The notes below the pieces were generated by a model. That model did not search any database. It was not told where the DNA came from and worked only from the letters and a program-made list of their open reading frames with translations. A stretch of 64,000 bases of DNA from Buxus sempervirens (Eukaryota; Streptophyta; Magnoliopsida; Buxales; Buxaceae). Both the position numbers and the translations under genes were made by a program. Where the stretch lies: positions 28,749,829-28,813,828 of the forward strand of contig OX387187.1 in NCBI GenBank assembly GCA_947561395.2, in the 5' to 3' direction. Positions 10,359 to 63,907 of the stretch are shown here, piece by piece. Position 1 is the stretch's first letter. Each line of letters begins with the position of its first letter.

Positions 10359-12659
10359 TGTGAGACATGGGAAAAATCACCGGAATGATCATCTCTCCGT
10401 CAACACACGGGGCTCGAAATAAAAACGGGAGAGTCGCCACCATTCATTTTTTTTTTGAGGTGAGAATGGACACCAAAATGTTCAAAATAAGCAAAAATAG
10501 CCAAAAAAAAAACATTCTAGGATAAAAATAACCCTACTTGAAAATCAAATCCAGAGATGGGTAAGGGGATTAGATTATGAACGGGGGAAGGTGTTAGGCA
10601 CCCCCATTCATCCACACGAAGTGGTTGCCAAGTGTATGTTCATGCAAAAACAAAGTAAGAAAGCTTGCTAAAAATCATGAGAAACCTTGAAAAAGGTCAA
10701 ATGTATGATATCTTCACATGAGAATCCAAATGAATTTTGGGTTCTCCTTTTATGTCAATATCATTTCTGGAACATTAAAGAGGTGGGAATCAAAGCACAA
10801 GTTGCTCAAAACCAAGTTAAATCAAATCCGGGAAGTTTGGTAAAAAGTATGCCATTTGTCTTGAAATCATTCAAATACAATTTTAAATCAAATCAAACCA
10901 AATCCATTTGAAAGATTATAATAAATAAGAGCCTCATGCAAAATTTCACTTCATTCCGACGAAAAATCTAGGAGTTATGCTCCTTTGAAGTTGCTGCTGG
11001 GGATTTTTAAAAGTGGTAAGTGGGCAACTTTGGAAAATTGTCTAGGAAAATCCACTACATAAAAGTCCACGAAATTTGGTGTGATTGAAGTTTGTATGGC
11101 CATCTTTCAAAAGAAACTAGCCTCATACAAAAATCCCTTCGGATGTGCCTTGGGTGGTCTCCCGAACAGGCCCCGAAGATCACAGATTTACCCAGAAAAG
11201 TACAAATGAACAGTTCTGAGTAAATCGGATACCAATAATTCAAATGGAATCCAAAAATTATGAAACCAACTGGATTTGAAAATAGACTCATAAAAGAGTA
11301 CTCAGAAACAAAAATCACTCGAATCGGACTTGAATCGAACACATGGCGGTCCGTCGAAGTGACAAGTTCTGTATTTGAACCTGAACTGTCCACTCAACTT
11401 CGACAGAGAGGTGTCAAAAATCCGCTAGATAGAAATTTGTGAAATTTGGTGGACATAAACTAGACAGCCTCACCTTTCCCATGGTTCTAGAATCGCCCCA
11501 AAATTCATCCGGATGATGAAATTATGGGCGTCCGAAGTAAGGGTACAGGTGCTGTCTAGTTAGGCCACTTTTGAAGAAAATCAAATCCGAAAATTTATAA
11601 AGTGTGTGAGATTCGTGTGAGATGAATCCAAAACCTTTGAAAAACATTTAAAAACACTCCAGAATTTGATTGAGGCCATTTATTAGAGATTTATCACAAT
11701 GAACGTAATAAATCCCCAAATGTGAGCCTATTCACCAAAAAGTGTAATATGTGTGCAAGAGTGAAAAACCAAGCAAGATCAATACAACATGCATATAGAT
11801 TCAACAAGATAGGTTCTAGCATAGCCTAGGGTTCCGTTCCATTATCGTTTCCCTCTGTTCTCTCTCCCCGTTAAACACGGATCTTCGAAATAATCAAGGG
11901 TACTTTGATTATAGAACGGTTTTCAATCAATCAAAAAGGCCTTATGCTACATGGGTTCTAGCACTAGGGTCAATCCCCAGTCTCGTTTCTCCTAGATCCG
12001 CCTTCACGTTTTACGGCTAGGGGAGTCTTGAGATACTTTGAGCCGATGAAGGATTTCCACACATACAAACAAGGCTTTACACTACAGAAAGGTAGAAGAA
12101 GAGATCTAGATCTAGGAATGTAAAGACAGAAAATAAAAAGAAAAGTTGAGGCTTACCTGAGTTCTGGAGGCGATTCCACAGCGGTTTTCTTCTTCTCTTG
12201 GAGTTCTTCTTTGCGAGAATTCAAAACAAGAGTTCAGTGCCATTTGCTCAAGGAGGAGACTCCTATTTATAGGCAAGGGCTAAGGTCATTGGTAGACACA
12301 ACTTAATGTCTAGAACCCCTCCAACCTTAACCCTAAGGTCATTTCCGCGATTTCCCCTCATTTAATGAGGGACATGATGGTAAAAGTGAAAAGCTCTCGG
12401 AAAACCCTAATTTTGAGCAAACTTAAGGTATCCGGTATGTCAGACCGGATAAAAAAGGGCCTTAAGGTATCCGGTACATGGTACCGGATACACTAAGGCT
12501 CACATGTATCCGATATGAGTATCCGGATACATGAAGGAGTACTTGTATCCGGATTGAGTATTCGGATACAGGTAAAAGTTTATTTTCTTCAAATTCTGTG
12601 CTGGCTTTCAAGGAGATAATGATTTTTGATGATTGTTTGTGCAATTTGGGGTGTCTACA
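10359..12659 (-). mobile_element. Solo LTR, family A, inside family B LTR
   Basis: The 2301-bp LTR has the family A ends (minus strand TGTAGACACCCCAAATTGCA to CATGTCTCACA). It is flanked by GAGCT (10354-10358) and AAGCT (12660-12664), a 5-bp duplication with one change. The TATA box lies at 12263-12271 on the minus strand, the palindrome array at 12428-12569, and a splice donor (cag|gtaagcct) near 12156. It has no internal region, so it is a solo LTR formed by recombination within an element. Confidence 0.88.
12428..12569 (-). repeat. 39-bp-phased palindrome array, GTATCCGG stem
   Basis: Four 25-nt units start at 12428, 12467, 12506 and 12545, exactly 39 bp apart. The best unit is GTATCCGGT-7 nt-ACCGGATAC at 12467. 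It lies upstream of the LTR TATA box (12263-12271, minus strand). The stem is nearly that of the A1 arrays. Confidence 0.92.
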
Positions 12660-13444
12660 AAGCTGGCCTGAACCGTAGTACATTTACGGGCTAGGCCAGA
12701 CCATATAATAAATACGGGCAATTTTAAAATAACTTAAAAATGGAATTTTTGGACCCGGTTGGACCCGAATCCGACCCAAACCATCTTGGCCTGATCCTTC
12801 CAGCTTTTTGGGCTATTCTTAGCCCATTGGTAGACTGTGGGCCTAAATGGGCCCACCAAGACCTCCTGAACCCACCTATGTGGTCCACCTCTGACCGACC
12901 CAAACCATGCCTGTTTTCAACAAACGGGCCCAAGGCCACTTGCATAATTTCCATTGGGCCCAAGCTAAGCCCATTAGGCCTTGAAAACCTTTAATCAAAT
13001 AAATAAACCAAAAAGGTTATCCAATAACCCTACTGGGCTCAAGCCTGATATTGGCAAATCACAGGCTTTCCAACAGGACCTGTACCTGACCCACCTCACT
13101 TAAATAAAAAGATAAAAAATGGAATAAAAAGGGGCCCACACCTTCAGAGGCCCCCACCAAACTAAAAAGGCACATGCTGGTCTATGAAGGGTGAACTTGA
13201 CTCAAAAACCAGGGAGACCCGAGGGACCCGTCAGATCGACGAGGCGGGCCGGGGTGTCTTCGGACTTCCCCGGACGTAATCGAAGACTTAGTTAGATCTC
13301 TAATAAGCTGCAAACCAGACTTAGACCCGGATAGGAAATTCCCGTGTCTGTCTACACCTCTCAGGCAGTGGCGACTCCGAAAGTCCCGAGGCACGCACTT
13401 GCACGTGCGCCTCGTGTGCGATCTAGGTTAGATTTAAGTGCACA

Positions 13445-14018
13445 CACACTATAGCAATCTCTAAATATATTTAGAGAATAATATAAAGATAGGGAAGCTG
13501 CTGCAAGTCAAATTGTGCCTCATTCCATTTTTTTCTTCCTTATTTTAAAGATAGGAATAAAATAAGGAATCTGCTGGTGCTAATGCTCTAATATGGACTT
13601 GTACTGATGATGAGCATTAAATGGGGACGTGCTGAACAAGGTGGCGTTGAGTTTATTTAAATAAAGTATCACTAAATAAGAATTATTTTGAAAAATATCG
13701 CTAAAAACCAATTGCCCCTTTTTCTGCCGCAAAGTAACCTTCCGCAGCACGCGAGCGTGACACATCAGCCCCAAAGCCCTGCGAGCCTGCCACCCAAGAC
13801 ACCACACCGCCCGCTTAATATAATAGATTATTGTACGGCCTTAGCCTTTTTTTTTTTTTTTTTTGGTAATGACCTTAGCCTCTCAAAGCCGGCATGTGCA
13901 ACATCAATAAAGTAGGGTCCCCCCTGCAACTTGCATGTCTTTAAAAGCTTCCAAGTTTTAGACCTCCAGTGCACAATTTTCATTAGAGATTTCAGAGGAA
14001 ATTAAGGATCTACAAAAG
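13445..14018. other. Upstream region of the ankyrin gene
   Basis: No coding frame on either strand fits a known protein. AT-rich stretches such as ttaatataatagatt (about 13815) and tttaaaagc (about 13941) could serve as a TATA element. The last 40 bases before the ATG resemble the start of the second internal repeat unit at about 14615-14643, showing that the gene's duplication took in 5' UTR sequence. Confidence 0.45.
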
Positions 14019-22952: not shown

Positions 22953-23197
22953 GTATCTGACATAATATGTCGGATACGCATATTTTTCTTTGTATTTGAT
23001 ATAATATGCCAGATACAAAAGATTTTATCCAAAATCTCGCCGAATTTTACAACAGATTTTCTTAGCGCATTTAATGTTTGAAATGATTGTGTTTGTATCT
23101 AGCATTTTATGTCGGATACAAACGAGGCTTAGTGTATCCGACATAATATGTCAGATACACACCAAATCATGTGTATCCGACATATTTTGTCAGATAC
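22953..23197 (+). repeat. 39-bp-phased palindrome array at family B promoter
   Basis: Five units of 25 nt start at 22953, 22992, 23095, 23134 and 23173. Spacing is 39 bp except for one gap of 103 bp. Arms are GTATCYGAC and GTCRGATAC with variants, and loops are mostly ATAATAT or ATATTTT. The last unit ends 10 bases before the TATA box. Confidence 0.92.
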
Positions 23198-24352: not shown

Positions 24353-24494
24353 TGATCTGACAACTCAAGTCGGATCAGCCTGTGTTTGTTTGTAGCGGAC
24401 ATCCAAGGTCGGCTACATGTAATCTTGTGTGTAGTCGACAGCTAAGGCCAGCTACACTGGTTCCTGTGTGTAGTTGACATCTCAGGCCGGCTAC
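24353..24494 (+). repeat. 39-bp-phased palindrome array downstream of family B promoter
   Basis: Four units start at 24353, 24392, 24431 and 24470, exactly 39 bp apart. The first has arms TGATCTGAC and GTCGGATCA, the others GTAGYYGAC and GYCGGCTAC, so both arms change together. The array is about 1.15 kb downstream of the TATA box. Confidence 0.92.
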
Positions 24495-30967: not shown

Positions 30968-33411
30968 TGTGAGACATGGAAAAATCACCTAGATGATTCC
31001 CTCCGTCATCACACGGGCTTAACAAAAATGGGAGAGTCGCCACCATTCAATTTTAAAGGTGTGAATAGGCACCAAAAATCATCAAAATAAACAAAAAGGC
31101 AGAAACTAGAGTAAAAATAACTCTACTTGAAAATAAAATCCAGAGATGGGTAAGGGGATTAGATTATGAATGGGGGAAGGTGTTAGGCACCCCCACTCAC
31201 CCACACAAGGTGGTTGCCAAGTGTTGTTCATGCTGAAAAATAAGAAAGCTTGCTAAAATCATCAAAAACCTTGAAAAAGGATTAAACAAATGTATGATAC
31301 TTTCACATGAGAAATCCAATGAATTCCAAATCCTCTTTTATGTCAATATCACTTCTGGGATATCACCATTAAATGGAAATCAAAGCAAGACTTGAACAAA
31401 ACCAAGTTGAGACAAATCCGGAAAATTCGGTAAAAGATAGAGCCATTTGTCTTGAAATCATTCAAATCAAATTTTAATTAAGTCAAACCAAATCCATTTG
31501 AAAGATTATGATAAATAGAAGACTCATGCAAATTTTCAATCAAATCCGGTTAAAATCCTAGGAGTTATACTCCTTTGAAATCTGCTGTTGGAAATTGTTA
31601 AAAGTAACAAGTGAGCAACTTTGGAAATTCATTTGGAAAAATCGGCTCCATATAAATCCATGAAATTTGGTATGAATGAAGTATGTAGGGCCATCTTTTA
31701 GATAAAACTAGCCTCATACAAAATTTCATCCGGATGTTCCTTGGGCAACCTCCCGAACAGGCCGCGAAGATCACAGATTAACCCAGAAATGTGCTGTTGA
31801 GCAGTTCTGAGTGAATCAGTCACCCACCACACAAATGGAGTCAAAAAATTATGAAACCAACTGGATTCAAAATTATACTCCTGAAGGAAAACACAGAAAC
31901 AAAAATCACTCAAATCGGACTTAAAACGAACACATGGTGCTCATTCAAATTGACAGGTTCAGCAATTAGACCTGAACTGTCCTATCAACTTCGACTAAAT
32001 GGTATCAAAAATCCCCTTCATAAAAATCGATGAAATTTTACAGATATAAACTATACAGCCTCACCTTTCCCATGGCTTTGAATCACTCCAAAATTCATCC
32101 GGATGATGAAGTTATGAGTGTTCGAAATTAGGGTACAGCTGCTGTCCGGTTTAGACCTTTTTAAGTAAAATCAATCCAAAATGGTGATCAAATGTGTGTG
32201 ATCCGTGCAATATGAATCAAAATCATTTGAAAAATTGTTGAAGAACCTCTAGGTGGAAATAGGGCACAAGGTTGGCTCACCATCCTCTCCGATTGGAGAG
32301 AATATGCCAAAAACCTTCAAATTGAGCAAAACGCCCAAAACCGAGAGGTTAGACCGTGAGGTCTTCAATACTTGCTTGAAATCATGTTGAAAACCATTGA
32401 GAAATGTCCCATAACTGTTTGGGGCTATTTATTTCAGATCTATTACAATGACTGCAATAAATCCGAAATACAAGCCGATTCGACAAAAACGGGTGCTATG
32501 TGTGTATGTGTAAAAATCCACTCTTCAACAACATATAGCATTCATATCAATCAAATGGGGTTCTAAAAACCTAGGGTTCCGTTCCATTCTCATTTCCCTT
32601 AGTTCTCTCTCCCCGTTTTATGGTTCTTCGAGATAGTCTTGGGGTACTTTGAGTATGAAACGGTTTTCATAGAACAAAAGGCTTTTCAAAAGGGTTCTAA
32701 CACTAAGGATCAATCCTCAATCTCGTTTCCCCTAGATCCCTCTTCACATTTTATGGCTAGAGGGAATCTTGAGGTACTTTGAGTAGAGAAAGGGGTTGCA
32801 TACACAAAGATTAGGCCATTATTCTACAGAAAGGTAGAATAAAAGAGCTAACCCTAGAATGTAAAGACAAAAAAATAAAGAGGGTTTTAGGCTTACCTGG
32901 GTTTCTAGAAGTAGTGTGGCAGCGGTTCCCTTCTCCACTCGGAGCTCTTCAACCTCCAACCTCTTGGCCATTTGCTTGAGGAGGGGCCTCCTATTTATAG
33001 GCAAAGGCTAGGGTTAGGGTTTGCATGATGCTAGACACAAAATGATGTCTAGAATCCACCAACTTAAACCCTAAGGCTATTTCCGAGATTTCCACTTCTA
33101 AAATGAAGGATATGATGGTAAAAAGTGAAAACTCTCGGAAAACCCTAATTTTGAGCAAAAACCTTGTATCTGACAACTGAGGTCAGCTACAAGGACACCT
33201 ATATGTATTCGACATATGTCGTCGAATACAATAATACCTGCTTGTAGCCAACGACTTGTGTTGGATATAAAAAGGTCTTCTTGTATCTGATGACTTGTGT
33301 CGGATACAATAAAGAATGCTTAAATCTAAATTTTTGTGCTTGTTACAAAGGAAAGAATGATTTTTTGCCAATTATTCATTATTTTCTCAGTGCAATTTTG
33401 CGGTGTCTACA
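30968..33411 (-). mobile_element. 3' LTR of minus-strand family A element (A2)
   Basis: On the minus strand it starts TGTAGACACCGCAAAATTGC and ends CATGTCTCACA. A polypurine tract (33412-33426) lies just before it in the minus-strand reading, which marks it as a 3' LTR, not a solo one. The TATA box is at 32991-32999, a splice donor (CAG|GTAAGCC) near 32897, and the palindrome array at 33166-33307. The left target flank is AGGCC (30963-30967); the other flank is outside the window. Confidence 0.85.
33166..33307 (-). repeat. 39-bp-phased palindrome array in A2 LTR
   Basis: Four 25-nt units start at 33166, 33205, 33244 and 33283. The second is the cleanest: GTATTCGAC-7 nt-GTCGAATAC. Others use GTATCTGAC, GTAGCCAAC and GTATCTGAT with fitting partners. 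The arm type (..CGAC/GTCG..) differs from that of A1 (..CGGC/GCCG..). Confidence 0.92.
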
Positions 33412-34089: not shown

Positions 34090-34090
34090 T

Positions 34091-34154
34091 GTATTCGACA
34101 TAATTGGTCGGATAAGAAAGGCCTCATTTGTATTCGACGTGATCCATCGGATAC
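34091..34154 (+). repeat. Palindrome pair at A2 antisense promoter
   Basis: Two units start at 34091 and 34130 (39 bp apart): GTATTCGAC-7 nt-GTCGGATAA and GTATTCGAC-7 nt-ATCGGATAC. The arm matches that of the A2 LTR array, not that of A1. The TATA box follows after 7 bases. Confidence 0.9.
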
Positions 34155-36797: not shown

Positions 36798-36888
36798 GTG
36801 TAGACACCCCAAATTGCACAATAAATCATCAAAAATCATTATCTCCTTGAAAGCCAGCACAAAAATTGAAGAAAATGAATTTTTACCA

Positions 36889-37030
36889 GTATCCGGCAAC
36901 TCAGGCCGGATACAAGTACTTTCCTTTGTATCCGGTGGAAAATGCCGGATACAAGGAAACTTTAGTGTATCCGGCATCATATGTCGGATACATTAAAGCC
37001 CTGGTGTATCCGGCCTGAGATGCCGGATAC
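36889..37030 (+). repeat. 39-bp-phased palindrome array in A1 LTR
   Basis: Four 25-nt units start at 36889, 36928, 36967 and 37006, exactly 39 bp apart. Arms are GTATCCGGC (one GTATCCGGT) and GCCGGATAC (one GTCGGATAC), with 7-nt loops aactcag, ggaaaat, atcatat and ctgagat. Spacers of 14 nt are unlike each other. Confidence 0.95.
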
Positions 37031-37195: not shown

Positions 37196-37214
37196 GAGGT
37201 TCCTCCTCAAGCAA

Positions 37215-37290
37215 ATGGCCAAGAAGTTGGAGATCCAAGAGCTCCGAGTGAAGAAGGGAACCACTGCCGGATTGCTTCCAGAACCCCAGG
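37215..37290 (+). other. LTR first exon with conserved splice donor
   Basis: From ATG at 37215 a 25-codon frame runs to CCCCAG at 37289, followed by GTAAGCC. A2 has a 25-codon frame of the same length ending at a CAG|GTAAGCC donor, and the LTR at 10359 has a 29-codon one. The donor joins in phase to the acceptor at 42193. Against translation of this part: the ATG is only 28 bases from the TATA box, close to or before the expected start of the RNA, and the differences between A1 and A2 mostly change amino acids. The donor itself is the better supported feature. Confidence 0.6.
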
Positions 37291-40497: not shown

Positions 40498-40639
40498 TTA
40501 ACCGGCAACTTAGGCTGGTTAAGAATAATTTTCTTCATATCCGGTATATAATACCGGATACAAAGGGTTATGCGTGTATCCGGTCATTATTGCCGGATAC
40601 AGTAAGGCATATGCTTATCCGGCACTTAATGCCGGATAC
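40498..40639 (+). repeat. 39-bp-phased palindrome array in A1 leader
   Basis: Four 25-nt units start at 40498, 40537, 40576 and 40615, exactly 39 bp apart. The first has TTAACCGGC with GCTGGTTAA, and the others ATATCCGGT, GTATCCGGT and TTATCCGGC with ACCGGATAC or GCCGGATAC. The first unit shows paired change of both arms against the GTATCC/GGATAC type. Confidence 0.95.
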
Positions 40640-42068: not shown

Positions 42069-42193
42069 CACAAAAACAAAAAAAAAAAAAAACAAATCTG
42101 GATTGGTGTTCACCTAACCTACTTGTTTACATGTATAGGGGTGTGGCTCAAGTTAAATAGAAGCTAACATGTTCTATTAATTTTTTTCCCCAG

Positions 42194-44484
42194 GTACATT
42201 TATTTGCAACCATTGCTCCCGTGACCAGATCCAAAGCCAGAGCCATGAACACTGAAGAGAACCAAGCCCAAGCCACCGTACCTGCTCAGGACTTTGCTCA
42301 GATGCAAGAGCAGGTGGCCGGTCTGGCCAAAATGCTGGGAGACCTACTGGAGGCTCAGGCCCAACAGGCTCAGACCCAAAATCAGGCATCGACTTCCCAT
42401 CAGGCACCACCACCTCAGGCCTACATACCGCCTTCGGCTCAACCCATGCCTGAGCCCATTTCTGAACCAATCCCTGAACCCATTCTGATCAGGGAAAATA
42501 CAGCAGAGTCCGAGAAAGAACTAGAGAAAGAAAAGGCCAGGGAAGAAACTGAAAGAAAAATGCTGCTCAGGATAGAGAGGATCCAAGAGGAGCTGAAGGA
42601 AGTGAAGGGGGGAAACAGCCATGGAGGCACCACCTTCGAGGATCTGTGCATGTATCCTGACATATGTCTACCAGCCAAGTTTAAGTGCCCGGACTTCGAC
42701 AAGTTCGACGGCACAGGCTGCCCCATGAGCCACTTAAAACTATACTGCGGGGCCCTATGCCAATTTGGCCGGGATGATGGCACATTGATCCAACTCTTTC
42801 AGAGGAGTTTGACCGGGTCAGCTCTTAGGTGGTTCGCTACAGTGGACCATGGAAGGATCAGGAGGTGGAAGGACTTGGCTGACGCGTTCTTGGATCAGTA
42901 CAAGTTTAACTCTGAGATTGTGCCGGACCGGTACGACATGATGAGGATGGGCAAGGGGAAATATGAGCCGGTACGGCAGTACGCCAAGAGGTGGAGAGAG
43001 GCCACCTCCCAGGTCAGGCCACCTATGCAAGAACCGGAGATGATCTCCACGTTTATGGGCACACTGGGGCAGCCCTTCTACAACCATTTGGTGGGTCAAA
43101 TCACCACCAACTTTGCAGCCCTGGTACAGGTGTCGAACCGGATCGAGTAAGGGGTCAGGTCAGGAAGGCTGATAGACTACTCTACTCTGATTGGCAGTCT
43201 GATTCCTCTGTCTCCATGGTCCAGAAGAAAGGGGCTGGATTCAAAAAGACCGGGGCCCGAAAAGAAGGGGAAGTAAATCTGGTCCAGGCTCCTCCAGCCA
43301 AGAAGCCGCTCCACGTCAACATCTCTGCAACCCAACAGGCCCAGCAGTCTTATCAGACCCCACTGAATGTCAATTTCTCCCCCTCCGTACCAGCAAACCC
43401 AAGGAGGGCTTTTACCAGGGAGGAAAGGGACGCCTGGTTAGCAACAAGAAAGAACCGGGTTTTCACTCCTCTCCCAATATCTCTTTCCCAACTGCTGCCA
43501 ACCCTGCTGAAGGGTGAATATTTGACTCTGAAAGAGCCCAACCCGAATGCCACCAGGGGGAGGAATTTTGACACAGCAGTCACCTGTGACTTCCACATGG
43601 GTGCACCAGGGCATTCTACAGATGCCTGCTGGGTGTTGAATCACGCGGTCCAGGACTTGTTGGACCAAAAGGCCTTAGTGTTTAACACTGCTGCACTAGC
43701 CCCGTCCGGGAAGGATATTGGGCAGAACCCTCTGCCGTACCATAATGGGGCAGGCCCATCCAATTCTATCACAGCCATATCCACCACAAGAAGGGCCTTT
43801 GACCCATCACAGCTCATAGCTCCCATAGGGACCACGGTCCAGGTCCGATTTTTCCCAGAGGAGGAAGAAGAGGAGATCAACATGGTCTTCCAAAAAAATA
43901 ATCCTGCTGCTGAGGACATAAGCTCCTCTTTAAACCGGGTCTCCTCTCTTATGGCCCAGATGAATACTGCAAGGCGCCCATTGGTCTTCAATTGCAGTCC
44001 ACCCACTTATTCCCCATCCAAGCCATCCAAGGCTCCACTGGTCATCAACCTTGACCCCACCACTGCTTCCATCACTTCTTCTGTCCCCACAAAATCCAAA
44101 CTTCAACCCTTGGTTGTAAATGTTCAGTCAGCCCAGACTATCCCTAAACCGGCCCATACATCCCGGTCCAAACTCCAGCCATTAGTGGTTAATATCCCCA
44201 AACTAGCCTATACTGAGGCCACTGTACCATGGAATTATAGCGAGGGAATCACGGCTACGGTTCCAAAGGTTAGGAACCAGAACCAGGAGGAGGTGAACCT
44301 CATGACGAGGTCAGGGAAATGTGCAGGGGGTGAAAAGAAGGAGAAGGAGACAGAAGCAGAAAAAGAAAAAAAAGAAAATGAAGAAAAAAGAAAACAAAAA
44401 GGAAAGAACAAAGTGGGAGAAGAAACCCCCCAGGGTGTAGAAAATGAGGCAGCCGACCTCATAAAAATCATAAAAAAAAGGTGA
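42194..44484 (+). pseudogene. A1 gag, split by one stop and a frameshift
   Basis: From the acceptor the frame runs through VHLFATIAPVTRSKARAMN, a Q-rich and E/K-rich coiled part, then the capsid-like domain with KFKCPDFDKFDGTGCP, LTGSALRWFATVD and FNSEIVPDRYDMMRM. It meets TAA at 43148-43150, and after a shift near 43200 it continues in another frame to 44484. The second part holds FTPLPISLSQLLPTLLKGEY and a knuckle-like CDFHMGAPGHSTDACW, followed by a P/K-rich tail. Gag forms the particle and binds the element RNA. The tail ends in a run of A where a further frame change occurs. Confidence 0.9.
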
Positions 44485-44521
44485 ATTCAATCTTGTGGAT
44501 CAGTTAAACAAGGTCCCGGCC

Positions 44522-45556
44522 TAGATTTCAATACTGGGCCTTTTGCTGAATTCGGAAAAGCACAGGGACGCATTGTTAAGGGTGCTACAGAGTGCACATG
44601 TGTCCCAGACAATTGATCCAGACCAGCTAGGCAAGATGGTTGGTCAAATCTTATCACATAATGTGATAAGTTTCTCTGAGGGTGAGATCAGCCCAAGTGG
44701 GTGCTATCACGTTGACCCTTTGCACATCACTGTGCTTTGTAAGGGCAGCATGGTGGCACGGGTTCTGATTGACAACGGGTCGGCATTAAATGTCTGTCCG
44801 TTAATCACTTTTGCCAAGCTGGGTCTGGACCAGTCAAAAATTAAACAAAATGGGCGGATAGTTAGGGCTTTTGATAGCTCCAAGACCCATTCCCTACGGG
44901 AGATTGAACTGCCGGTCACAATTGGGCCGAATATCTTCAACATCACATTTGAGGTGATGGATATACCCGCAGCATTCAATCTACTCCTAGGGAGGCCGTG
45001 GATACATTCGGCTAGGGCAATACCATCCACGCTCCACCAAATGGTGAAATATGTAAAAGGGCAAAGGGTGATAACAGTCCTAGCCGAAAACTTGGTGCCG
45101 TCCATCGTGTCACCTGATGTACCCTTGATCAATGTAGACTTGAATGTTGACAAGATTGCATTCCACTCATTTCAATTTGAGGCGGTTAATTTCATACCTG
45201 GGGGGTGTGAGAAAAAGAAAGAAAAGGGGACTACTGCTGAGAGAATGGTGAAGAAAGTGATGGAAAAATACCACTTTCATCCAGGAAAAGGCCTGGGAAG
45301 AAATTTACAAGTAAGGGTGGAGCCAGTCAAAGCAAACAAGCTGGTTCCCAAAGCAGGGTTGGGCTTCAAGCCCCGAGGCTGGAGAAGACAGAAGTATGAG
45401 GAAGGAGAGAGAAGAAGCCGAAGAAGTTTCCCTCATTTAAGGGAAAATTTTCCTAAACCCTCATGCATAATCCAACTGTCTCATCCCATGGACCAGTCCA
45501 AGCCTCCATACCACAACCTCAACCCATTCCAAAAACCCTATATTCCAACCCTGTAA
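44522..45556 (+). pseudogene. A1 aspartic protease with G-patch-like region
   Basis: The frame resumes after TAG at 44522-44524 with LLNSEKHRDALLRVLQSAHV. The active-site motif is LIDNGSALNV, a variant of the D-S/T-G triad usual in Tat elements, and the second conserved part is LLLGRPWIHSA. After the protease comes a G-patch-like stretch, MEKYHFHPGKGLGRNLQ (about residues 230-250). The protease cuts the Gag-Pol chain. A TAA at 45554-45556 interrupts the link to the next part, which goes on in the same frame. Confidence 0.88.
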
Positions 45557-46101
45557 CCCAATAACCCGTATCCAATACTGGAAGCAGCAGATGGGCCTGG
45601 GCCACAGCCCGAGCAGCAGGTGGAATTTTCTGAAGAGGTTGGGGCTTTCTTCGCCATGACTGAGGGCAATAAGACAGAAGCAGCTGAGGACCTGCCGTTC
45701 ATTGATTGGGCCGTAGTGAAGATTCCAGACGAGGTCATATCTGGACTGAGCCTTGTAGCAGAAAAGGGCAATGCCCACCCGGTGATGATGGCATCGGATT
45801 CTGGGCCTGAGGAGCGAGCTTGCACAATTTCCCCCGCTCCCGAAAAACATTTTTTTAATAATTGGGAGGAAACTCCCCTTACTTTTGAAGCAGCGTTTGT
45901 TCGGCAAACTGACGCGGCTTCCAAAAAAAAACTCCAATAGTAGATTGCCATTCCCCTGAAGGTTCTAATGGGCCTTCGTCTTCAGGGGGATTATGTTTAG
46001 AAGGCCCACAAAAAACCCAAAAAGATTTTTCTATTTTTTCTAGAAAATTTAATTTTTTCAAAAAGGTCCAAACCACTTATGAACCCTATAATCAAACTGA
46101 A
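45557..46101 (+). pseudogene. A1 pol linker between protease and RT
   Basis: The same frame continues after the stop through 45620-45940 with acidic sequence (FSEEVGAFFAMTEGNKTEAA, IDWAVVKIPDEVISGL) typical of the spacer in Tat pol. It is lost in an A-run near 45925, after which another frame leads to the reverse transcriptase. No enzyme motif is present. Confidence 0.7.
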
Positions 46102-48087
46102 TTGGACCAGGTTGAATATGACTTCGACTTTGATCTCATGGGGGTCGAAGAAGAGACCGAAGAAGAAGACCTTCCAAAAGAAATTGAATACCAATTGGAA
46201 CGTCATGAAAAGGGGGTCCAACCTAATATTGAGGACACCATATCCATAAATCTGGGGACCGAAGATGACCCAAAAATTGTGAAAATCGGGTCATACTTCT
46301 CTAATGTGCAGCAAAATGAAATGTCACGGTTCTTGGCGGACTACAAGGATGTGTTTGCTTGGTCGTATCGGGACATGCCGGGGTTGGACACAGACATGGT
46401 GGTGCATAAGTTGCCGATTTTGCCAGGGGTTAAGCCAATCAAGCAGAAGCTGAGAAGATTAAAGCCGAAATGGACCTTAAAGGTCAAGGACGAAGTGGTC
46501 AAACAATTCCAAGCCGGATTTCTGGCAGTCTCAACGTACCCAGAGTGGCTCGCAAACATAGTGCCAGTACCCAAGAAGGACGGAAAAGTCAGAATGTGCG
46601 TGGACTATAGAGACTTGAACAAGGCAAGCCCAAAGGATGATTTTCCGCTTCCACACATCGACATTCTGGTCGATAATACTCCGGTACATAGCCTGTTCTC
46701 CTTCATGGATGGGTTCTCTGGATATAATCAGATCAAGATGGCTAAGGAAGATCAAGAGAAAACGGCATTTATCACACCTTGGGGCACATTCCACTACACA
46801 GTCATGCCGTTTGGACTCAAGAATGCCGGGGCAACATATAAGCGGGCCATGACAGCACTATTCCATGACATGATCCACAAGGAGATGGAGGTCTACGTGG
46901 ATGATATGATTGCCAAATCATGCAAGGAGGAGGACCACTTGATCAATCTGAAGAAGGTGTTTGATCGGCTCAGGAAGTACAGTCTACGGCTTAACCCAGC
47001 TAAGTGCGTCTTTGGGGCTACATCAGGGAAGTTGCTGGGGTTTATAGTGAACCGAAGAGGAATTGAAATTGACCCGGCTAAAGCCAAGGCCATAATTGAA
47101 ATGCCAGCACCCAGAACCGAGAAGGTGGTCTGTGGTTTTCTCGGAAGAATTCAATACATAAGTCAGTTCATAGCACAACTCACTGCTATCTGTGAACCAA
47201 TTTTCAAGCTTCTGAGGAAAGATAACCCGACGGTCTGGAATGAGGATTGCCAGCAGGCCTTCGATACGATCAAGGAATATCTACTGAACCCGCCTGTGCT
47301 AGTGCCACCAACTCCAGGAAGACCACTGATCCTGTACTTGTCAGTGTTGGAAACGTCAATGGGATGTGTCTTGGGGCAGCATGATGAGACTGGAAGAAAA
47401 GAAAGGGCCATTTACTATCTGAGTAAAAAATTCACAGAATATGAAGCCAAGTACTCACCATTGGAGAAGACTTGCTGTGCTCTAGTGTGGGCAACTCAGA
47501 GGCTAAGGCATTACTTCCTTAGTCACTCCACACTATTGATATCCCGAATGGACCCGCTGAAGTATTTATTTGAGAAACCGGCACTGACTGGCAGGACGGC
47601 AAAATGGCAACTGCTACTGTCCGAGTTTGACCTCACGTACATCACTCAGAAGGCGATCAAGGGTCAAGCCATAGCTAATCACCTGGCTGCACATCCTCTG
47701 CCAAAATATCAACCTTTGAAGACCAACTTTCCAGATGAGGCAATCCTGTACACTGAAGAGGAGGAAAGTGAGAGTTCTTGGCAGATGTTCTTTGATGGGG
47801 CCGCCAATATGAATGGGAACGGAATAGGGGCAGTCTTGGTTAAACCAGATGGGTCACACATCTCGATTGCAGTAAAGCTGAGATTCCAGTGCACCAATAA
47901 CATAGCAGAATATGAAGCATGCATAATTGGATTGCAAGCAGCCATGGATCATGGAGTAGAGGAACTTGACGTATACGGGGATTCGAGTCTTATCATCTTC
48001 CAAACAACTGGTGAGTGGAAAACCAAGGATCACAAATTGATCCCCTATCACCAGTATTTGGAAGAAATAAGCACAAATTTCACTTGA
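46102..48087 (+). pseudogene. A1 reverse transcriptase, RNase H and second RNase H
   Basis: A 661-residue open part. Reverse transcriptase spans about residues 105-330, with FMDGFSGYNQI (about 201) and the catalytic YVDD (265-268). RNase H spans about 395-530; its expected first Asp lies in LETSMGCVLGQ, where Glu stands instead. The second, archaeal-type RNase H starts near 555 with FFDGAANMNGNGIGAVL, then EYEA (about 603) and YGDSSL (about 625). A double RNase H is a Tat-lineage mark. The frame ends in TGA (48085-48087) within the second RNase H, but homologous sequence goes on in the same frame. Confidence 0.93.
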
Positions 48088-49509
48088 ATTTCCTTCAACT
48101 ATATGCCAAGGGCCAAAAATCAATTTGCGGATGCTCTAGCAAAATTAGCTTCAATGGTCAGCATACCAGAAGGAGTAGACATCAGACCACTGGAAATTGA
48201 GGTTAGAGATGAACCGGCTTACTGTCTTGTTCTAGAGGGAGCACCAGAAGAAGAAGCACCGTGGTTTCAAGATATCAAAAATTTCTTGAACAATCGGAGT
48301 CTGCCAGAAAATGCCACTGCTACTGAGAAGAGGACAATACAGAGATTGGCTGGTCAATTTCTGCTAAGTGGTGGACATGTGTACAAGAGGTCACATAACG
48401 ATATTCTGCTCAGATGTGTAGCCAAGGCTGAATCGGAAAGGCTGATTGAAACTGTACATGGAGGAGTTTGTGGGCCCCATATGAGTGGGCACATGTTGGC
48501 AAAGAAGATCTTGAGGTTCGGCTACTACTGGACGACCATGGAGCATGATTGCTGTATACATGTCAGGAGATGCCATCAATGTCAGATATATGCAGATAAC
48601 AAGCATGCACCCCCAGGTGAGTTGCACAACATGACATCACCATGGCCCTGTCTCTATGTGGGGCATAGATGTCATTGGCATGATCTCACCTAAGGCATCG
48701 AACGGGCACAGATTCATCCTGGTGGCGATTGATTACTTCACTAAGTGGGTAGAAGCAGCCTCATATGCAAACATCACAAGCAACCATGTTATTAAATTTT
48801 TGAAGCACAATATTATTTGTCGCTATGGACTGCCAAGTGCCATAGTATCAGACAACGCTTCAAATATTAAGAACAAGGACATGAAGAAGATGTGTAAGCA
48901 GTTTCAGATCACCCACCACAAGTCAGCTCCGTACGGGCCGAAGATGAATGGGGCAGTAGAAGCAGCAAATAAAAATATAAAGAAAATCATTCAGAATATG
49001 GTGGTGAGCTACAAGGATTGGCATGAAATGCTACCACTTGCTCTACATGCCTACAGAACCTCGATCCGGACTTCAACTGGGGCAACCCCGTACTCCCTAG
49101 TCTATGGGATGGAGGTAGTCTTGCCCGTGGAAGTAGAGATCCCATCACTCCGAGCGCTCATGGAAGCAGAACTAGAAGAAGCCGAATGGGTACAGTCAAG
49201 ACATGATCAACTTAACCTGATAGAAGAAAAGCGGTTGAAAGCGCTTTGCCATGGACAGTTGTACCAGAAGAGAATGGCCCAGGCCTACAATAAGAAAGTG
49301 AGGCCCAGAACTTTCCAAGAAGGAAACTTGGTGCTAAAGAAAATCTTACCATTTTTGGAAGATCCTCGTGGTAAGTTCAAGCCCAATTGGGAAGGGCCAT
49401 ATGTCGTCAAGAAGGTCCTGTCAGGGGGTGCACTCACTTGGTAGAAATGGATGGGTCAGATTTTCCTGAGCCAATTAACTCTGATGCAGTAAAAAGGTAT
49501 TTTCCTTGA
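48088..49509 (+). pseudogene. A1 integrase, broken by two frameshifts
   Basis: After the stop the frame resumes with MPRAKNQFADALAKLASM (end of the second RNase H) and the integrase zinc-binding part (HMSGHMLAKKILRFGYYW, CHQCQIYAD). An extra base near 48650 shifts it. The core then has D in WGIDVIG, D in VSDNAS and E in GAVEAANK, with 35 residues between the last two, so DD35E. A lost T near 49441 shifts the frame again before the end, DGSDFPEPINSDAVKRYFP and TGA at 49507-49509. Integrase inserts the DNA copy into the genome. I see no chromodomain. Confidence 0.92.
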
Positions 49510-57695: not shown

Positions 57696-59449
57696 CTAAT
57701 CTCTGTCTCCTAGCCGCTCCTCAAGCTCCCGAATCCGAGCTGCCTGAGCTGCGATAACTCCTGAAGCCCCCTTTGTAGCGGGACCACTCAGGAAGGATAT
57801 GACCTCATCTGAAAGGGCCTGTCTGATCCGCATACTCCTAAGGCTGGCCAAAGTATCCTGGTACTTCTGCCGTATCATACGGACCTCAAAGCGACGGGCC
57901 TGCCTCTGCTCCTCCAGCTTTTCCTCCATGGCGGTACGGCGGGATATCTGCTCCTCAAGCTGCCTCTCCAGATAAAGGCCCTGTATCCTGAGCTCCTGGG
58001 CCTCCCGAACCCATATCTATTGAAGCCGCTTATGAGAAGCTCTCTTAGACTCTAAAATATCCTCATAAGTGGGAGCCAAGAGTGCAGGAGGATCTTCGGG
58101 TACTGGGGCCTGACTCTGTATCTGCTCCTGGATCCAGAAGAGATAATCCTTCACACGGGCTTCTGAGAAGACGGGGCCACGCATGAAGCGAACATAGGAC
58201 CACTCCCTCATCAACCAGGCATTCAGCTTCATGGTATCTGGAGAAAGGGGCCCAAGATGATCCTCATGCCCACTTGGGATGATAATCCCCTGGGTCGCTC
58301 GGAACTGACGAAGGACCCGCAGAGGAAGATACAGCACTGCATGTCTCAGGCCAGCTAGGATCAGAAAGTTGCGGTCACGGAAGCTAATCACTGTCTCTGC
58401 ATTGGGCTGATAAGTACCGGGCCATCTCACCTGGTCATCTTGAAGTAAGCCCAAGAAAGTGAACCAACCCTGTTTGCCCCCTGGAATATCAGGACACCCC
58501 CGATTGCTCATCAAGTTGGGGAATTTCAGGCTAGGGAAGAAGTGTCGATTGATTTCTTCAATCTGACTCAGATGATCAAGTAGCCAAAGCTACAAAGGAA
58601 GAGAGATATTTCAGCACATTGTAAAAGAAAAAAGCAAAAAAAGCAAGAAAAAAAGCAAAAAAGCAAAAAGAAAGCAAAAAAAAAGCAAAAAAGAAAGCAA
58701 AAAGGCAAAAATAAAATAAATAAAAAAATAATTTTTTTTACTTGCAGGATCTGGGCACATGCTAAGAAGCGTTTCGACTTCCTATTGTAGCAATCAATCA
58801 AGGCCTGATACATCCCAGCCAAAATCATAGGGGCCAACCTCTCCCTCTCCCTAACCTGGCATATCACTGAAATCAAGGCCAAGTCCACCTCATCATCATC
58901 TCGTGGGAAAAGCAGCTGGTTGACCACTATCAGGGTCAAGGCATTGAACCGGGCTTCCTTGTTCTCCCCTCTCAAAAGCTTCTCAGTCAAAAAAGCCTTA
59001 GACAAGGTCAACAGTGTGTCAGAGTCCCCTAAGTCCTTCTTCCCTATGCCCAAGAATGTAGAAGCTTCCTTCTTGTAACTGGGCCTAAAAGGTGGGTTCA
59101 CCACCTTCTCATCAAACCTCAAGCCCAGGATGGTTTCCACCTCCTCAATGGTTGGGGTCATCTCATGGTTCCCAAAACGAAACAAGTTGAGGTCGGGAAC
59201 CCAATGACCAATCATGGCCTCTATAATCTCCCACTTGAAGGGAACCTTGGGAATGAGCAGGGTGTGGCCTAGATTAGTAGAATCCCATCTCCTCTCCTCA
59301 TCTAGGGTCATAGAGTTAACCCATCTTGTGTAAAAGGAATCCACAGGGTTATACCTAGTGAGATTTGGGGGTTTTGATCTAAAAGGTTGTTTTGCAGGGG
59401 AGGCAGTGTGAACAGACAATAATGGGGCAGAAGATGATCTGGATTCCAT
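57696..59449 (-). pseudogene. Antisense DUF7745-like gene of A1, two exons
   Basis: Exon 1 is 59449-58742 and exon 2 is 58589-57696, joined in phase 0 over a 152-bp GT-AG intron with a T-rich tract, 533 codons in all. I chose the ATG at 59449 because an ATG at 59542 lies too close to the TATA box. The domain part has FKWEIIEAMIGHWVPDLNLF, TPTIEEVETILGLRF and LILAGLRHAV; order and spacing resemble DUF7745/plant-mobile-domain proteins. After LWLLDHL at the exon junction comes WFTFLGLLQDDQVRWPGTYQ. The C-terminal part (from about residue 440) is a coiled coil rich in E, R, Q. One in-frame TAG (58017-58019) is the only break. Function unknown; it runs against the element's own transcription. Confidence 0.78.
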
Positions 59450-59559
59450 TAGAGTTGATGGGAGCAGGCTAGAACTCAAGATGAGGAAGAAAAAGGTGAA
59501 AAGGGGGTTTTCTAAACTCAAAAACTCGTAGAAAAAGTGCAAATCCCGATGCTGGTTGC

Positions 59560-59568
59560 ATTTATATC
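59560..59568 (-). promoter_or_regulatory. TATA box of antisense DUF7745-like gene
   Basis: Minus-strand gatataaatgc, 10 bases downstream of the last palindrome (59579) and about 115 bases upstream of the chosen ATG. Confidence 0.7.
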
Positions 59569-59578: not shown

Positions 59579-59720
59579 GTATTCGGCATATCAGGCCGGA
59601 TACAAAGCATTCTGTTCATATCCGGCAAAGAATGCCAGATACAAAGAAGTTTTAGCGTATCCGGCATACTATGCCGGATACAAAGAAAACTCAATGTATC
59701 CGGCCTGATATGCCGGATAC
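59579..59720 (-). repeat. 39-bp-phased palindrome array at antisense promoter
   Basis: Four 25-nt units start at 59579, 59618, 59657 and 59696, exactly 39 bp apart. Arms are GTATTCGGC, ATATCCGGC and GTATCCGGC with GCCGGATAC (one GCCAGATAC), the same as in the A1 LTR and leader. Confidence 0.95.
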
Positions 59721-59925: not shown

Positions 59926-62627
59926 CTACTCCTGTACAGGATCATCCCCGCGTCCTCGGCCGCGTCCACCTCTACGGCCTCTCCCTCGAAGCGATCGGCC
60001 ACTAGAGTAGGCCATAATACGCTCGGTAGCAAGACAAGGAAGCCGACCCACCACCTGCTAGATCTGATACTCCAAGCAATACTCCTCGAGGTCTGGGGGC
60101 GGAGCAAGAGCAGAATCAGAAGAGGCCTCTGGCTCAGCAGCAACCGACCCAACTAGGCCCTCAGCCATAGCAGGCTCTACTCCCGCAGCTCTAGAAGGCC
60201 CGGCAACAGCAGTAGAAGGACCAGGAGCAGAAGTAGCTGGGTCCACAGGAAAAAATCAGAAAATTGAGATATAAGGAGGAACCAAAGAGGAAAATTAAAA
60301 GAGAACATACCAGGAATGTCTGCAGCAGGAACCAGAGGATCCGGCTCATCAGGACCAGCCGCTGGGGCATCCTCGGGATCAGCAGCCTGAGCTGGAGACG
60401 GATCAGGAGCTAGAGGAGCCGGCTCGTAAGCAGCGTCATCCGGGACTGGGCCCTGCACAAGTCAAACAAGCATATCATAATAGCAGAAACAGGAAAATGA
60501 AAGAGATGAAAATATAAGAAGACCAGATACCTGTCTAGCCTGGAGCTCAGCAACCAGGGCCTCCAGCTCCCTGATCCGGGCATCCCTCTGGGCCACGACC
60601 CCGTCGTCCTCAGCGATCATATCATCGATCGCGGCCCGCTGGCTCTCGAACAGGTCTCGGATGGTATTCAGCTCGTGCACCTGCCAACAAGAACAGAAGT
60701 GGGGTCAGAAATGCATAAGGGAAGAAAAGTGGATGAAAATATTAAGATTACAAGGCTTACCGTGTCCTCATGGATCCGGATGCAGATCCCGCTGATCTCG
60801 GTCACCCCGGCACGAGTGGGTCAATCCATCAAGCATCCAATAGAGACTCTCTGGATCCACTCGTCATAATCCCCGTCTACTGTGAGCCCCTCCGCATCCA
60901 GGAAGTGATCAAACTAATCCACATCAAAGTCTGGGAGGAGTGTGTCGGGACCCACAAGAGGAGGAGGAACGGGGATGCGAAGTGTGCCTATGTGCTGGAA
61001 GTACAGGCGCTCTCCCAAATACATCACCCTACCAAGTCTTCCAAGGAAGCACTGGTAGGGCTGACGTCAGAGATCTCTATCAAAAGCATCCTGTACTGCC
61101 ATCTCACGAGCCGCTCCAACATCCACGTCATCAGAACGGGATAGGATGAGCTGCAAAGAATAAAAGTGGTCAGATACAATCAAGAGGCAGGAAGAGAAGT
61201 AAAAGAAAAAAGGATAGAGGATTTACATCGGATCGGCGAGCACGATCCAAGTGCACCCGAGCAGTGCGAGGCTGACTTCTATCAGCATCTCGGACCTGGG
61301 CCGACCAGCGTAAAGCAACGGGGAAATCCGCGACCTCAGGAACCGCGGATGGGCGAAAGAAAGTCATATTGGTGTACATAAACACCTGGCAAAAGAAAAA
61401 TCAGACAGAGATAAAGAAGGATAAAACCCAAGGAATTAAATCAGACAGATGAATCCAATACCTGCAGAATCTGCCAGAAGAACCGACAACTGACTCCATC
61501 GCCTCTCAGGGATGCCAGGCCTCGAACCACTCGGCACAACCCGGCCAGGATGGTCCCATAAATGAGTCGATCCCAAGCTAGCTGGCGAGTCTGGCGGAAA
61601 TCTCTCAAGGCATCCAAGAAGAGTGGGCTGACACTGGTGGTATCCTCCGGGAAGAAGCAACTCCCGAGCATCAGCAGGAATACATGGCGGAAGATAGGGA
61701 CAAAATCTGCATCCTCCACGGAGATGGTCTCGTGTCTCCCCTCATAATGATGAGCCAGGCTCTCCCGCAACCAGCTAATAGAGAGGCGACCACTCCGCCC
61801 ATCCCAAGCAACATGGGGCAGATCCGGATATCCCAGGAGGAGGCCGACATCCTCTGCAGAAGGCCGATCCAAGACGATGGTCCGCCCCGTCAAAGGAATG
61901 CCGGTAATCATCACAAAATCGGAGGGGCGGATCCCTAGCTCCACGTTCGTTAGATGGAATGACTGAGTCTCCGGGAAATATCTCTCCATCATGGCAAATA
62001 TGAGTGGACGATCGGCTCTGAACAAGGGGATGCTGATGAAGTGATCCAGGTGGCACCTCCCAAACTCGCGTCTGAGTGCCGGAAAAAGGGACTGAGCCAA
62101 CTCGCTGAATCTCCCCCAACTGCCTCGCAAATGGGAAGAATGGTAGGGAAGAGGCACATCTACCCTGATGCACAAGGAGGGGTGGCTATCCAAGCCACTG
62201 AGAAGCTCTGTATCATGAACAGATGCTCTTAGCTCCTCAAAGACCCCTGATAGAGCCACAGCAGCATCATCCTGAGCCGCACCTCTAGCTCTGCCTTGGC
62301 CTCGGCCTCTGCCACGGCCTCCCTCGCTCTCAAGGGCCTGATCCTGAACTCTACCTCGGCCTCTGCCTCGACCTCGAGCCGGAGCAACGACGGGCTAAAA
62401 TTCAAAGGAAAAGTGTGAAGGTTGTGTGGGAAAAGAGAATAGAAGAAAGAAAAGAGAGAAAGAATTTGGAAACCTACCTCAGCGGAACCCTCAACAGAGC
62501 TCTCTCTGAGATCATCCAGAGGCTCCGAAAGGGTGGCACTAAAACTCGTCTCAATCCAAGCTCGAGACGAAGAGGGTCGATCAGCTGGGTCGACCTCCTC
62601 TCGCACACGAGAACGACTCCTAGCCAT
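59926..62627 (-). pseudogene. Antisense PMD-like gene of A1, seven coding exons
   Basis: Exons on the minus strand: 62627-62478, 62394-61462, 61385-61227, 61150-60761, 60680-60531, 60452-60311 and 60236-59926. All introns are GT-AG, phases fit, and the total is 745 codons. A 5' UTR exon (to 63474) with a CAG|GTTAGT donor lies upstream. Parts in order: RG-rich stretch (PARGRGRGRGRV), PMD-like domain with ELGIRPSDFVMITGIPLTGR and VFLLMLGSC, a charged region, a short coiled coil (VHELNTIRDLFESQ), P/A-rich linkers, and an RG-rich end (RGRGRRGGRGRGRG). Breaks: in-frame stops at 61067-61069, 60914-60916, 60821-60823 and 60058-60060. PMD proteins MAIN and MAIL1 of Arabidopsis take part in transposon silencing; whether this relative does is unknown. 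Confidence 0.8.
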
Positions 62628-63843
62628 CTACACAGGGAAGTGTCCTATGAGTTTCGGTTCAAATTCATCAGAAATTCTACTTTGCTTTTAATCTAGGTTT
62701 CGGTGCAAATTACCTTGCTTTTAACCTAGGTTTTAATTCAGCTGAAGTTTTACAAGACTTTTTCAAGCTATCCTTTTATTTCTGCTATTGTGGTTCAAAG
62801 TTTTTTGGGAAAATATTTGATTGTCAGCTATCTTGGATCTATGCGAAGCTTAATACTTCCTAATTGATTTTCAGGAGTTGCTCTGGAAGGCAGGATAAAA
62901 TGGGCAGGATAAGGATCAATGGGGGAAAGCACACTCCGAAGGCTACTGAGACACCAAGTCTGGGGTGGTCATGAAGTCAGACATGTTCAAAAACAAATCA
63001 CAGACAAGTGTGAAAAGTTAAAGCCCCGCCTTGGTCAAAAGCATGTGGGGAATCAGATTGGGGAAAATACATCATCTGAAATTTGGAAAGTAGGCAATTC
63101 TCCACCACTGGCAATTCAAAAGCATTGAAAAATCATGCCAATCCGTAGGAATATGTCACCGGCAATTAGTCTCAAGGAATGGTCAAACTAAAAGCCAATC
63201 ACAGCATGGATATAATCATAGCAAGTGCAAAGTGTGAAATTGCATACATCAGAAGACAAGTTCACATTGGCAATCATCAAAGAACAACAATCAAGGCATG
63301 ATAAAAGTGCTTGGACATGGCAAATTAGGCGAAGCATATCGCAAGAAAAAAGAGCACATGGCATCAAGTCTGCAAGTTCCAAATATCACCAGAGTTGAGA
63401 ATACAAAATCATAGAATCATGTCATGATCAATTTGGGGATTTGATTACAAAAGTGCAAAGTAAATGCACTAACCTGGTTGGTGGACGAACAGTATGATAC
63501 CTCAAATGCAAAATGTGGAAGCAAGGTGAAGAAGGGAGGATCGCCCGAAGTCGGAGACGATTTTTTATACTCCGGAGGACAGTCGCCAAACTGTGAGATC
63601 AACAGAAAACAGCAAATCTGGAAAACGAGCTGGGGCTCGGCCACCACAGCAAGTGAACAATCGCCAGGGGATTTAGGCCTTGCCGGAGTCAATAGGAGTC
63701 GTCGGAGCTCAAGGATTCGTCGGGAATGGCCGGAGAAGAAAGGAGAAGACGAGCGCAAGAGTGGGCTGTGTCCGGAGTTAGTAATCGGAGAAGAAGAGAA
63801 TAATGGAAAAGTCGCGGTCACGCGCGACTTAATAAAAGCAGTA
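62628..63843 (-). promoter_or_regulatory. 5' exon, first intron and promoter of antisense PMD-like gene
   Basis: Minus-strand TTTTATTAAG (63829-63838) takes the place of the TATA box seen in A2. The 5' UTR exon ends at 63474 (CAACCAG|GTTAGTGC), and an 846-bp intron ends with TGTAG directly before the ATG at 62627. The A2 copy has the same donor phrase (GTTAGTGCA) and an acceptor directly before the ATG. Confidence 0.65.
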
Positions 63844-63907
63844 GTATCTGGTCACTCAGGCCGGATACAAGCAAGACCATTCTTATCCGGCTAAACATGC
63901 CGGATAC
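63844..63907 (-). repeat. Palindrome pair at antisense PMD-like promoter
   Basis: Two 25-nt units start at 63844 and 63883, 39 bp apart: GTATCTGGT-7 nt-GCCGGATAC and TTATCCGGC-7 nt-GCCGGATAC. The stem is that of the other A1 arrays. Confidence 0.92.

Follow-up and report, generated by a model that had tools for sequence, protein, structure and literature searches.

Promoter-linked arrays of palindromic units with a preferred 39-bp period in Tat/Ogre-type retrotransposons of Buxus sempervirens

The window analysed here, a stretch of 64,000 nucleotides from Buxus sempervirens (contig OX387187.1, positions 28,749,829 to 28,813,828), contains nested elements of the Tat/Ogre type of Ty3/gypsy retrotransposons, and with them arrays of palindromic units that belong to these elements. 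The arrays are real, widespread in the genome and linked to promoters; the symmetry of their units is conserved, and a period of 39 bp is preferred. Judging from their sequence and position, we consider it probable that they are cis-regulatory DNA, that is, clusters of sites for a symmetric factor, located mostly upstream of the TATA promoters of this Tat/Ogre-type family. The plant origin of the window follows from its protein content (gypsy gag-pol and plant mobile domain, PMD), and the window was located on contig C9 of the 676.5-Mb plant genome to which the genome-wide counts below refer.

Geometry of the arrays and their occurrence in the genome

A preliminary description of the window had reported nine arrays made of units with 9-nt arms and a 7-nt loop (9-7-9), set 39 bp apart with a single exception of 103 bp. 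All nine arrays are found where that description placed them, and the intervals inside them are 39 bp in 23 of 24 cases and 103 bp in the remaining one. The consensus of the unit is GTATCCGRY-N7-RYCGGATAC, which corresponds to 25 bp containing two half-sites (TATCCGR) at a distance of 16 bp. When a unit was scored as present if at least 14 of the 18 arm positions agreed, 256 kb of first-order Markov sequence gave zero matches; thus, the arrays are not due to chance.

Exact units occur 24,495 times in the genome, while the reversed control gives 0. Pairs formed by a unit and, beyond a gap of 1-31 bp, a following half-site were matched 13,528 times in the forward and 14,298 times in the reverse direction, with 0 matches in the controls. 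Among the 100 such matches listed, all of which lie within the first 7.6 Mb of contig C1 and many of which are near-identical copies, the period is 39 bp in 83, 38 in two, 41 in one and 52 in 14; we read the period of 52 bp as a half-site within the loop of the next unit. Fifteen randomly placed stretches of 10 kb (150 kb overall) contained arrays in 3 cases, and the distances below 400 bp in these were 39 (16 times), 104 (once) and 143 (once). In viral contigs isolated units were found in 11 records, with no two units 39 bp apart.

Placement relative to TATA promoters

The relationship between arrays and promoters is illustrated by one of the retrotransposons in the window, element D. The 5' long terminal repeat (LTR) of this element (36799..39103, plus strand) carries a four-unit array in its unique 3' region (U3; 36889..37030, plus strand), and the LTR TATA box, GCCTATAAATAGGAG (37187..37193, plus strand; aligned in 7 of 7 U3 copies), lies 157 bp past the end of the array. 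In general, U3 arrays begin about 90 bp into the LTR, and a TATA box (GCCTATAAATAGGAG or one change off) is found 156-169 bp past the array. This layout is seen in the window also in the array at 12428..12569 (four units, minus strand, TATA 157 bp past the array), which belongs to the LTR at 10359..12659, and in that at 33166..33307 (four units, minus strand, TATA 167 bp past the array), which belongs to the LTR of a minus-oriented element; elsewhere it is seen at loci L001, L004, L009, L011 and L029, and at 7 of ten further loci. Genome-wide, half-sites occur 140-170 bp upstream of the LTR TATA 2,379 + 2,386 times (4,765), and 0 + 4 times at that distance downstream. A splice-donor-like word, CAG|GTAAG, located some 100-130 bp past the LTR TATA, is kept in 7 of 7 aligned copies of U3 and the adjoining R region (12160 and 37330 regions of the window), which suggests an intron in the leader.

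Arrays also precede the antisense accessory genes of element D. The open reading frame (ORF) PMD58, which encodes DUF7745 and a plant mobile domain (58568..59566, minus strand), has upstream a four-unit array (59579..59720, minus strand) followed on the minus strand, at +13, by the TATA box GATATAAATGC at 59566 and, 117 bp beyond, by the ATG at 59449. We scored 121 genome copies of PMD58 among 13,047 first-look candidates; the reading frame is free of internal stops in 89 of them (hand count). For 20 of these 121, drawn from successive levels of the ranking, the 260-290 bp upstream were examined, and four units and a TATA box at +13 were present in 20 of 20. The second antisense ORF, PMD61 (plant mobile domain, 61441..62394, minus strand; Pfam score 44.9 bits, cut-off 34.9), has a two-unit array about 1.45 kb upstream (63844..63907, minus strand), with a degenerate TATA-like word, TTTTATTAAG. 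In a sample of 8 copies of PMD61, two good units 39 bp apart were found in 4, and one good unit with a damaged one in another; two of the remaining sequences were seemingly cut at the array, and one was without any unit. In the minus-oriented element a two-unit array (34091..34154, plus strand) likewise stands before the antisense PMD gene, with TATATAAG 8 bp past the array.

A third type of promoter has four or five units with a gap of 103-143 bp, and TATA at +12 or +13. It is represented in the window by the five-unit array at 22953..23197 (plus strand, including the 103-bp gap; TATAAAAAGGG 12 bp past the array), and elsewhere at L013:8255, L029:8142, L037 and probably L011:7687. In a set of 24 arrays a TATA word was found at 15 bp or less from an end of the array in 7 (2.3% of random intervals), at 150-175 bp in 9 (4.4% of random intervals), and anywhere within 175 bp in 17 (22.8% of random intervals); these counts include copies of one promoter type, which are not independent, although at least four types are represented (LTR U3, 22953 type, PMD58, PMD61).

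Conservation, symmetry and common descent

The arms are conserved, while loops and spacers drift. Across six U3 arrays the identity is 80.4% for the arms, 54.0% for the loops and 54.4% for the spacers; between different contexts the corresponding values are 80.6%, 44.6% and 43.0%. As a separate observation, the 420 bp downstream of the U3 arrays are 82.9% identical in a gapped alignment, and loops and spacers diverge faster than this flank.

The two arms of a unit also change together. In the 87 units of the 24 arrays, 687 of 783 arm pairs match; shuffling arms between units gave a mean of 620 and a maximum of 640 in 2,000 shuffles, while shuffling only within arrays gave a mean of 670, the observed value being reached by 10 of 2,000 shuffles (all these numbers are inflated by the relatedness of the copies). 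Matched double changes include TTAACCGGC/GCCGGTTAA, TGATCCGGC/GCCGGATCA, and GTAGCCGGC with GCCGGCTAC; a changed pair at arm position 8 is common to 18 units, and the first unit of the array at 40498 has arms that are altered yet still matched (TTAACCGGC / GCTGGTTAA). The A at arm position 3 is invariant (174 of 174 half-sites), and 25 of the 87 left arms have an A at position 8. The word CGG-N9-CCG is present in units whose arms end in GGY and absent where they end in GAY; CCG-N11-CGG is commoner.

It was originally proposed that the bases between the units are free. Loops and spacers do drift while the arms are kept; however, loops at the same position of different arrays are more alike than loops at different positions (50.1% versus 34.6% identity), and so are spacers (48.6% versus 39.9%). 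Some loops are specific to their position, AACTCAG for the first and CTGAKAT for the last, and because these first and last loop words are kept by position, we conclude that the arrays descend from one common array of four units. The period could then be due to descent alone, the arrays being what is left of a single ancient tandem duplication that copies of the element have propagated; the position-specific loop words, the similarity by blastn (73-77%) of arrays from different contexts, and the many young, near-identical copies in the genome all agree with this explanation. We consider it improbable nonetheless, as the arms stay at 80% where loops and spacers drop to 43-54%, the double changes are symmetric (18 units at arm position 8), and the array recurs at several promoters with unalignable flanks. 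The 39-bp period itself persists with diverged arms, with spacers near 43-54% identity, and in promoters whose flanks could not be aligned. Selection on geometry, as first suggested, is favored by the retention of the arms, by the period in diverged copies throughout the genome and by the presence of arrays beside several unrelated promoters, with the qualification that the shared descent of a four-unit array is visible.

The period is not as exact as had been thought. Upstream of the 20 PMD58 copies the intervals are 39 (45 times), 38 (14 times) and 59 (once), and 3 of 7 further U3 arrays contain an interval other than 39 bp (40, 41 and 64, each once); with the 103 and 104 bp already mentioned, 39 bp is a strong preference but not an absolute one. 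An apparent exclusion of insertions and deletions from the arrays (0 gaps in 15 U3 pairs, versus 4.2 expected per pair) is not relied upon: the six arrays compared, without gaps, had been preselected for four units at 39 bp, and L011:2682, whose first unit is damaged, had been omitted; on account of this preselection and of the intervals other than 39 bp in the 3 later U3 arrays, the claim was dropped.

The preliminary description had also extended the 39-bp period across element families. It is indeed found at several types of promoter, but a sister LTR family with the same LTR ends (333-2758, minus strand; 19886-22286, plus strand) has a different palindrome, AACCGCA-N7-TGCGGTT, which is irregularly spaced and without the 39-bp period. 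This palindrome has 10 matches in the two sister LTRs versus 1.6 expected in the whole window; the loop length and CCG-N11-CGG are common to both palindromes, while the flanking bases differ. There is, therefore, turnover of the palindrome motif between LTR families.

Protein sites versus RNA hairpins

The arrays had been regarded either as phased protein sites or as hairpins, and the mismatches within arms offer a way to discriminate between the two, because selection on RNA pairing is expected to raise G-T above A-C mismatches on the RNA strand. Counted in the orientation of the promoter, there are 38 G-T versus 36 A-C mismatches: 23 and 22 respectively in a hand sum over 15 oriented arrays, with five arrays excluded for want of a TATA orientation, and 15 and 14 in 9 of 10 further loci, with one locus lacking a TATA and one weak unit excluded. 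The 20 PMD58 regions, in which the raw counts are 49 G-T versus 5 A-C, show a bias instead; however, 41 of the 49 G-T represent three inherited changes at arm position 1, and in terms of distinct events the counts are 11 versus 5.

If the units were hairpins, their 9-bp stems and 7-nt loops would act in the RNA of the element, for example in packaging, dimerisation, translation or stability. Stem pairing and loop length are both maintained, as this function would demand, and U3 at the 3' end of the genomic RNA and the array at 40498 in the leader would both be transcribed; the raw excess of G-T in the PMD58 sample also points in this direction. On the other hand, mismatches of the G-U type are elsewhere no more frequent than those of the A-C type on the promoter-sense strand, the sense in which the PMD58 mismatches are G-T is that of the antisense gene, so that they are A-C in the genomic RNA, and these arrays lie upstream of the TATA box of that gene itself; a fixed distance from TATA is likewise unexpected for RNA elements. 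Altogether we find an action as hairpins very unlikely. Dimeric protein sites in DNA fit the data better, and phased protein sites are preferred because arm mismatches have no strand bias outside one inherited set and the arrays are upstream of TATA boxes.

Proposed role of the arrays

Positions, pattern of conservation, covariation of the arms, orientation relative to TATA and genome-wide recurrence are direct observations; the scheme that follows is built upon them. A symmetric DNA-binding protein, probably a dimer, would recognise each unit, and runs of two to five such units before a TATA box would recruit this factor, which may be a host protein or a product of the element, to the promoters of the LTR and of the accessory genes. 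The distance between half-sites is 16 bp (about 1.5 turns of the helix) and that between units 39 bp (about 3.7 turns of B-DNA), so that successive dimers would be oriented differently around the DNA. Phasing on the same face of the helix was rejected for this reason. As the same type of array is present at the sense LTR promoter and at least two antisense promoters of accessory genes, a single factor could control a small regulon, and the sense and antisense genes of the element would respond together. An effect on transcription would more likely be activation than repression, since an element that needs transcription in order to spread has kept the sites at each of its promoters.

Several observations weigh against this interpretation. 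The spacing is not strict and so does not call for cooperative binding at a single set distance; both the period and the covariation are in part accounted for by shared descent. In promoters of the PMD61 class the TATA word is variable or degenerate, besides the one sequence in 8 that has no unit, and the array types represented by 24353 and 40498 do not adjoin a TATA box. The strand bias in the raw PMD58 counts must be added to these points.

A more specific version of the scheme is that the element encodes its own control protein, with an antisense product (PMD58, PMD61 or another) binding the arrays of both its own promoter and the LTR promoter. Through such a circuit a gypsy retrotransposon would regulate itself or counteract silencing, and the palindrome and the protein that binds it would change together between LTR families (GTATCCGGC-N7-GCCGGATAC versus AACCGCA-N7-TGCGGTT). 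We hold this version to be a possible but rather unlikely one. An attempt to recognise a DNA-binding fold in PMD61 was abandoned, as the predicted model was too poor to be used (mean predicted local distance difference test score of 43, from 4 sequences), and a protein search with PMD61 returned a single relative, a Camellia MAIN-LIKE 2-like protein.

Finally, the palindromes might be targets of host silencing, as sources of small RNAs or as sites of methylation, kept only through their overlap with promoters. CCG and CCGG words can be methylated by plants; one or the other is present in nearly every half-site, and most mismatches are transitions. In maize, the palindrome-rich LTR regions of Sireviruses are hotspots for the mapping of small RNAs (PMC5311732, PMC10760457). 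Silencing by itself, though, gives no reason for conserved arms and symmetry, and we judge this explanation most unlikely.

Comparison with known systems

These results can be compared with what has been described in other plant retrotransposons. The statement that no description of such arrays existed was too strong, as palindromic LTR motifs were reported in 2010 for the Sireviruses, which belong to the Ty1/copia superfamily (PMC2829016). Their repeated motifs (RM), several palindromic boxes that have dyad symmetry and in most cases a CGG-CCG core, sit in the LTR upstream of TATA and again before the envelope gene (ENV): 77 of 79 linker copies are upstream of ENV (PMC2829016). In both systems a palindromic box recurs within the LTR, upstream of TATA, and has extra copies before an additional gene, which here is PMD58 (20 of 20 sampled) and not ENV; the citrus RM, AATCCGGCTWRCCGGATT, also has a half-site close to the present one (PMC2829016). 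The differences concern the host, copia in one case and gypsy with the Tat order of domains in the other; the extra gene, envelope-like versus antisense PMD; the number of copies, up to 32 per element with no fixed period stated in the available text; and the intervening bases, which in the consensuses of Table 3 of that paper are shorter than the present 7-nt loop (PMC2829016). The arrays would work like the Sirevirus motif, but they are not one.

Elements of the Ogre group contain a plant mobile domain in 57% of cases and have long non-coding regions (PMC6317226). The order of reverse transcriptase, RNase H, second RNase H and integrase, the PMD ORF and the long non-coding regions are the same here; palindromic arrays are not mentioned in the excerpt of that report on Tat elements with extra ORFs. 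In Retand and Grande, as in the present elements, antisense genes are found between pol and the 3' LTR; a role as regulatory proteins has been suggested, and gene23 of Grande is reportedly transcribed from its own promoter (PMC11963269, PMC7264820). In contrast to our elements, the proteins of Retand are of the TRP28 type instead of PMD, and the excerpts consulted describe no shared promoter array (PMC11963269, PMC7264820). The Arabidopsis PMD proteins MAIN and MAIL1 have been linked to the control of promoters with a DNA motif in common and to the silencing of transposons, and direct binding of DNA by PMD proteins is described as unknown in the same sources (PMC7156037, PMC9899485). A connection with this motif, DOWN, was discarded, since its occurrence in the MORC1 promoter, CATGCAGTTT, is unlike the present arms (PMC7156037, PMC9899485). 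Our searches of open-licence papers yielded no report of palindrome arrays for Ogre/Tat elements; some word of 8-9 letters from the arms occurs in 808 papers, and the 15 of these that were listed are unrelated by title.

Palindromic promoter arrays have been described as a feature of Sireviruses that is absent from other copia elements. The present elements, which belong to an unrelated superfamily, have the same design; its period is strong, and within a single element it is found at promoters of both strands, sense and antisense. Should the proposed role be correct, plant retrotransposons would have arrived at this promoter design convergently, and the arrays would offer a simple means of coordinating gag-pol with accessory genes on the other strand; the function of the accessory genes becomes a question that can be addressed directly by binding and reporter assays. 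Tens of thousands of similar sites in one plant genome would also suffice to titrate a host factor, or to rewire the control of genes nearby.

Element D and other features of the window

Element D is bounded by its LTR pair, a primer-binding site (PBS) word, a purine stretch and a target duplication, and is about 30 kb long. The 5' LTR begins with TGTAGACACCCC and ends with CATGTTTCACA, and the PBS word, TGGCGACTCCGCTGGGG, follows just after it at 39106; the partner 3' LTR is beyond the end of the window (L029:529-2830, corresponding to window positions 64529-66830), and the 5-bp target duplication ACAGG is present on both outer flanks. Identity between the two LTRs is 95.1% in blastn and 95.7% when aligned columns are counted (Kimura two-parameter distance 0.044), which at a substitution rate that we take to be 1.3e-8 per site per year corresponds to an age of about 1.7 million years. 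The insertion site (window 36799, L029:2831) lies in another element's antisense PMD gene, where the sequence ACAG|GTAAGG resembles the boundary between an exon and an intron.

Between the PBS and gag lies the four-unit leader array (40498..40639, plus strand), which has a homologous array at L009:3256. The region 42161..49444 (plus strand, several frames; Pfam) encodes gag, a protease region with a G-patch, reverse transcriptase, RNase H, a second RNase H (RVT_3) and integrase. With gag (PF03732) followed by reverse transcriptase, RNase H and second RNase H, and with integrase after the reverse transcriptase, the order is that of gypsy/Tat; RVT_3, the archaeal-type RNase H, covers residues 627-723 of the frame of reverse transcriptase and RNase H, with integrase in the next frames. 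PMD58 and PMD61 both score above the Pfam cut-off as extra plant-mobile-domain ORFs, and by domain order and PMD ORFs element D appears to be a Tat-lineage element of the Ogre type. The G-patch domain (PF01585) is in a frame between gag and reverse transcriptase (44525-45556). Tandem repeats of 22 bp, themselves palindromic and again with a 7-nt loop (GGGCGC-GAGCTCA-GCGCCC), are found between pol and PMD58 (55197-55451); further tandem repeats of 75, 147 and 139 bp occupy non-coding parts of elements at 40921-42067, 56538-57024 and 33566-33920, respectively.

The second, older element is in the minus orientation. Its LTR (30968..33411, minus strand) has a purine-rich stretch resembling a polypurine tract (PPT) beside its minus-strand start, and its PMD gene (35844..36798, plus strand), about 70% identical to PMD61 and with a frame break, scores under the curated Pfam cut-off and is interrupted by element D. 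The LTR at 10359..12659 (minus strand), with neither PBS nor PPT-like neighbours, is probably a solo LTR. The array at 24353..24494 (plus strand), about 1.15 kb downstream of the TATA of the 22953 type, has four units with diverged but matched arms, and relatives at L013:6028, L013:9728 and L029:9599. Finally, a gene region with ankyrin repeats and internal duplications spans 13962-17041, and a perfect palindrome, TTGTGCCATGCATGGCACAA, is contained in a 40-bp tandem unit present in about four copies at 27312-27464.

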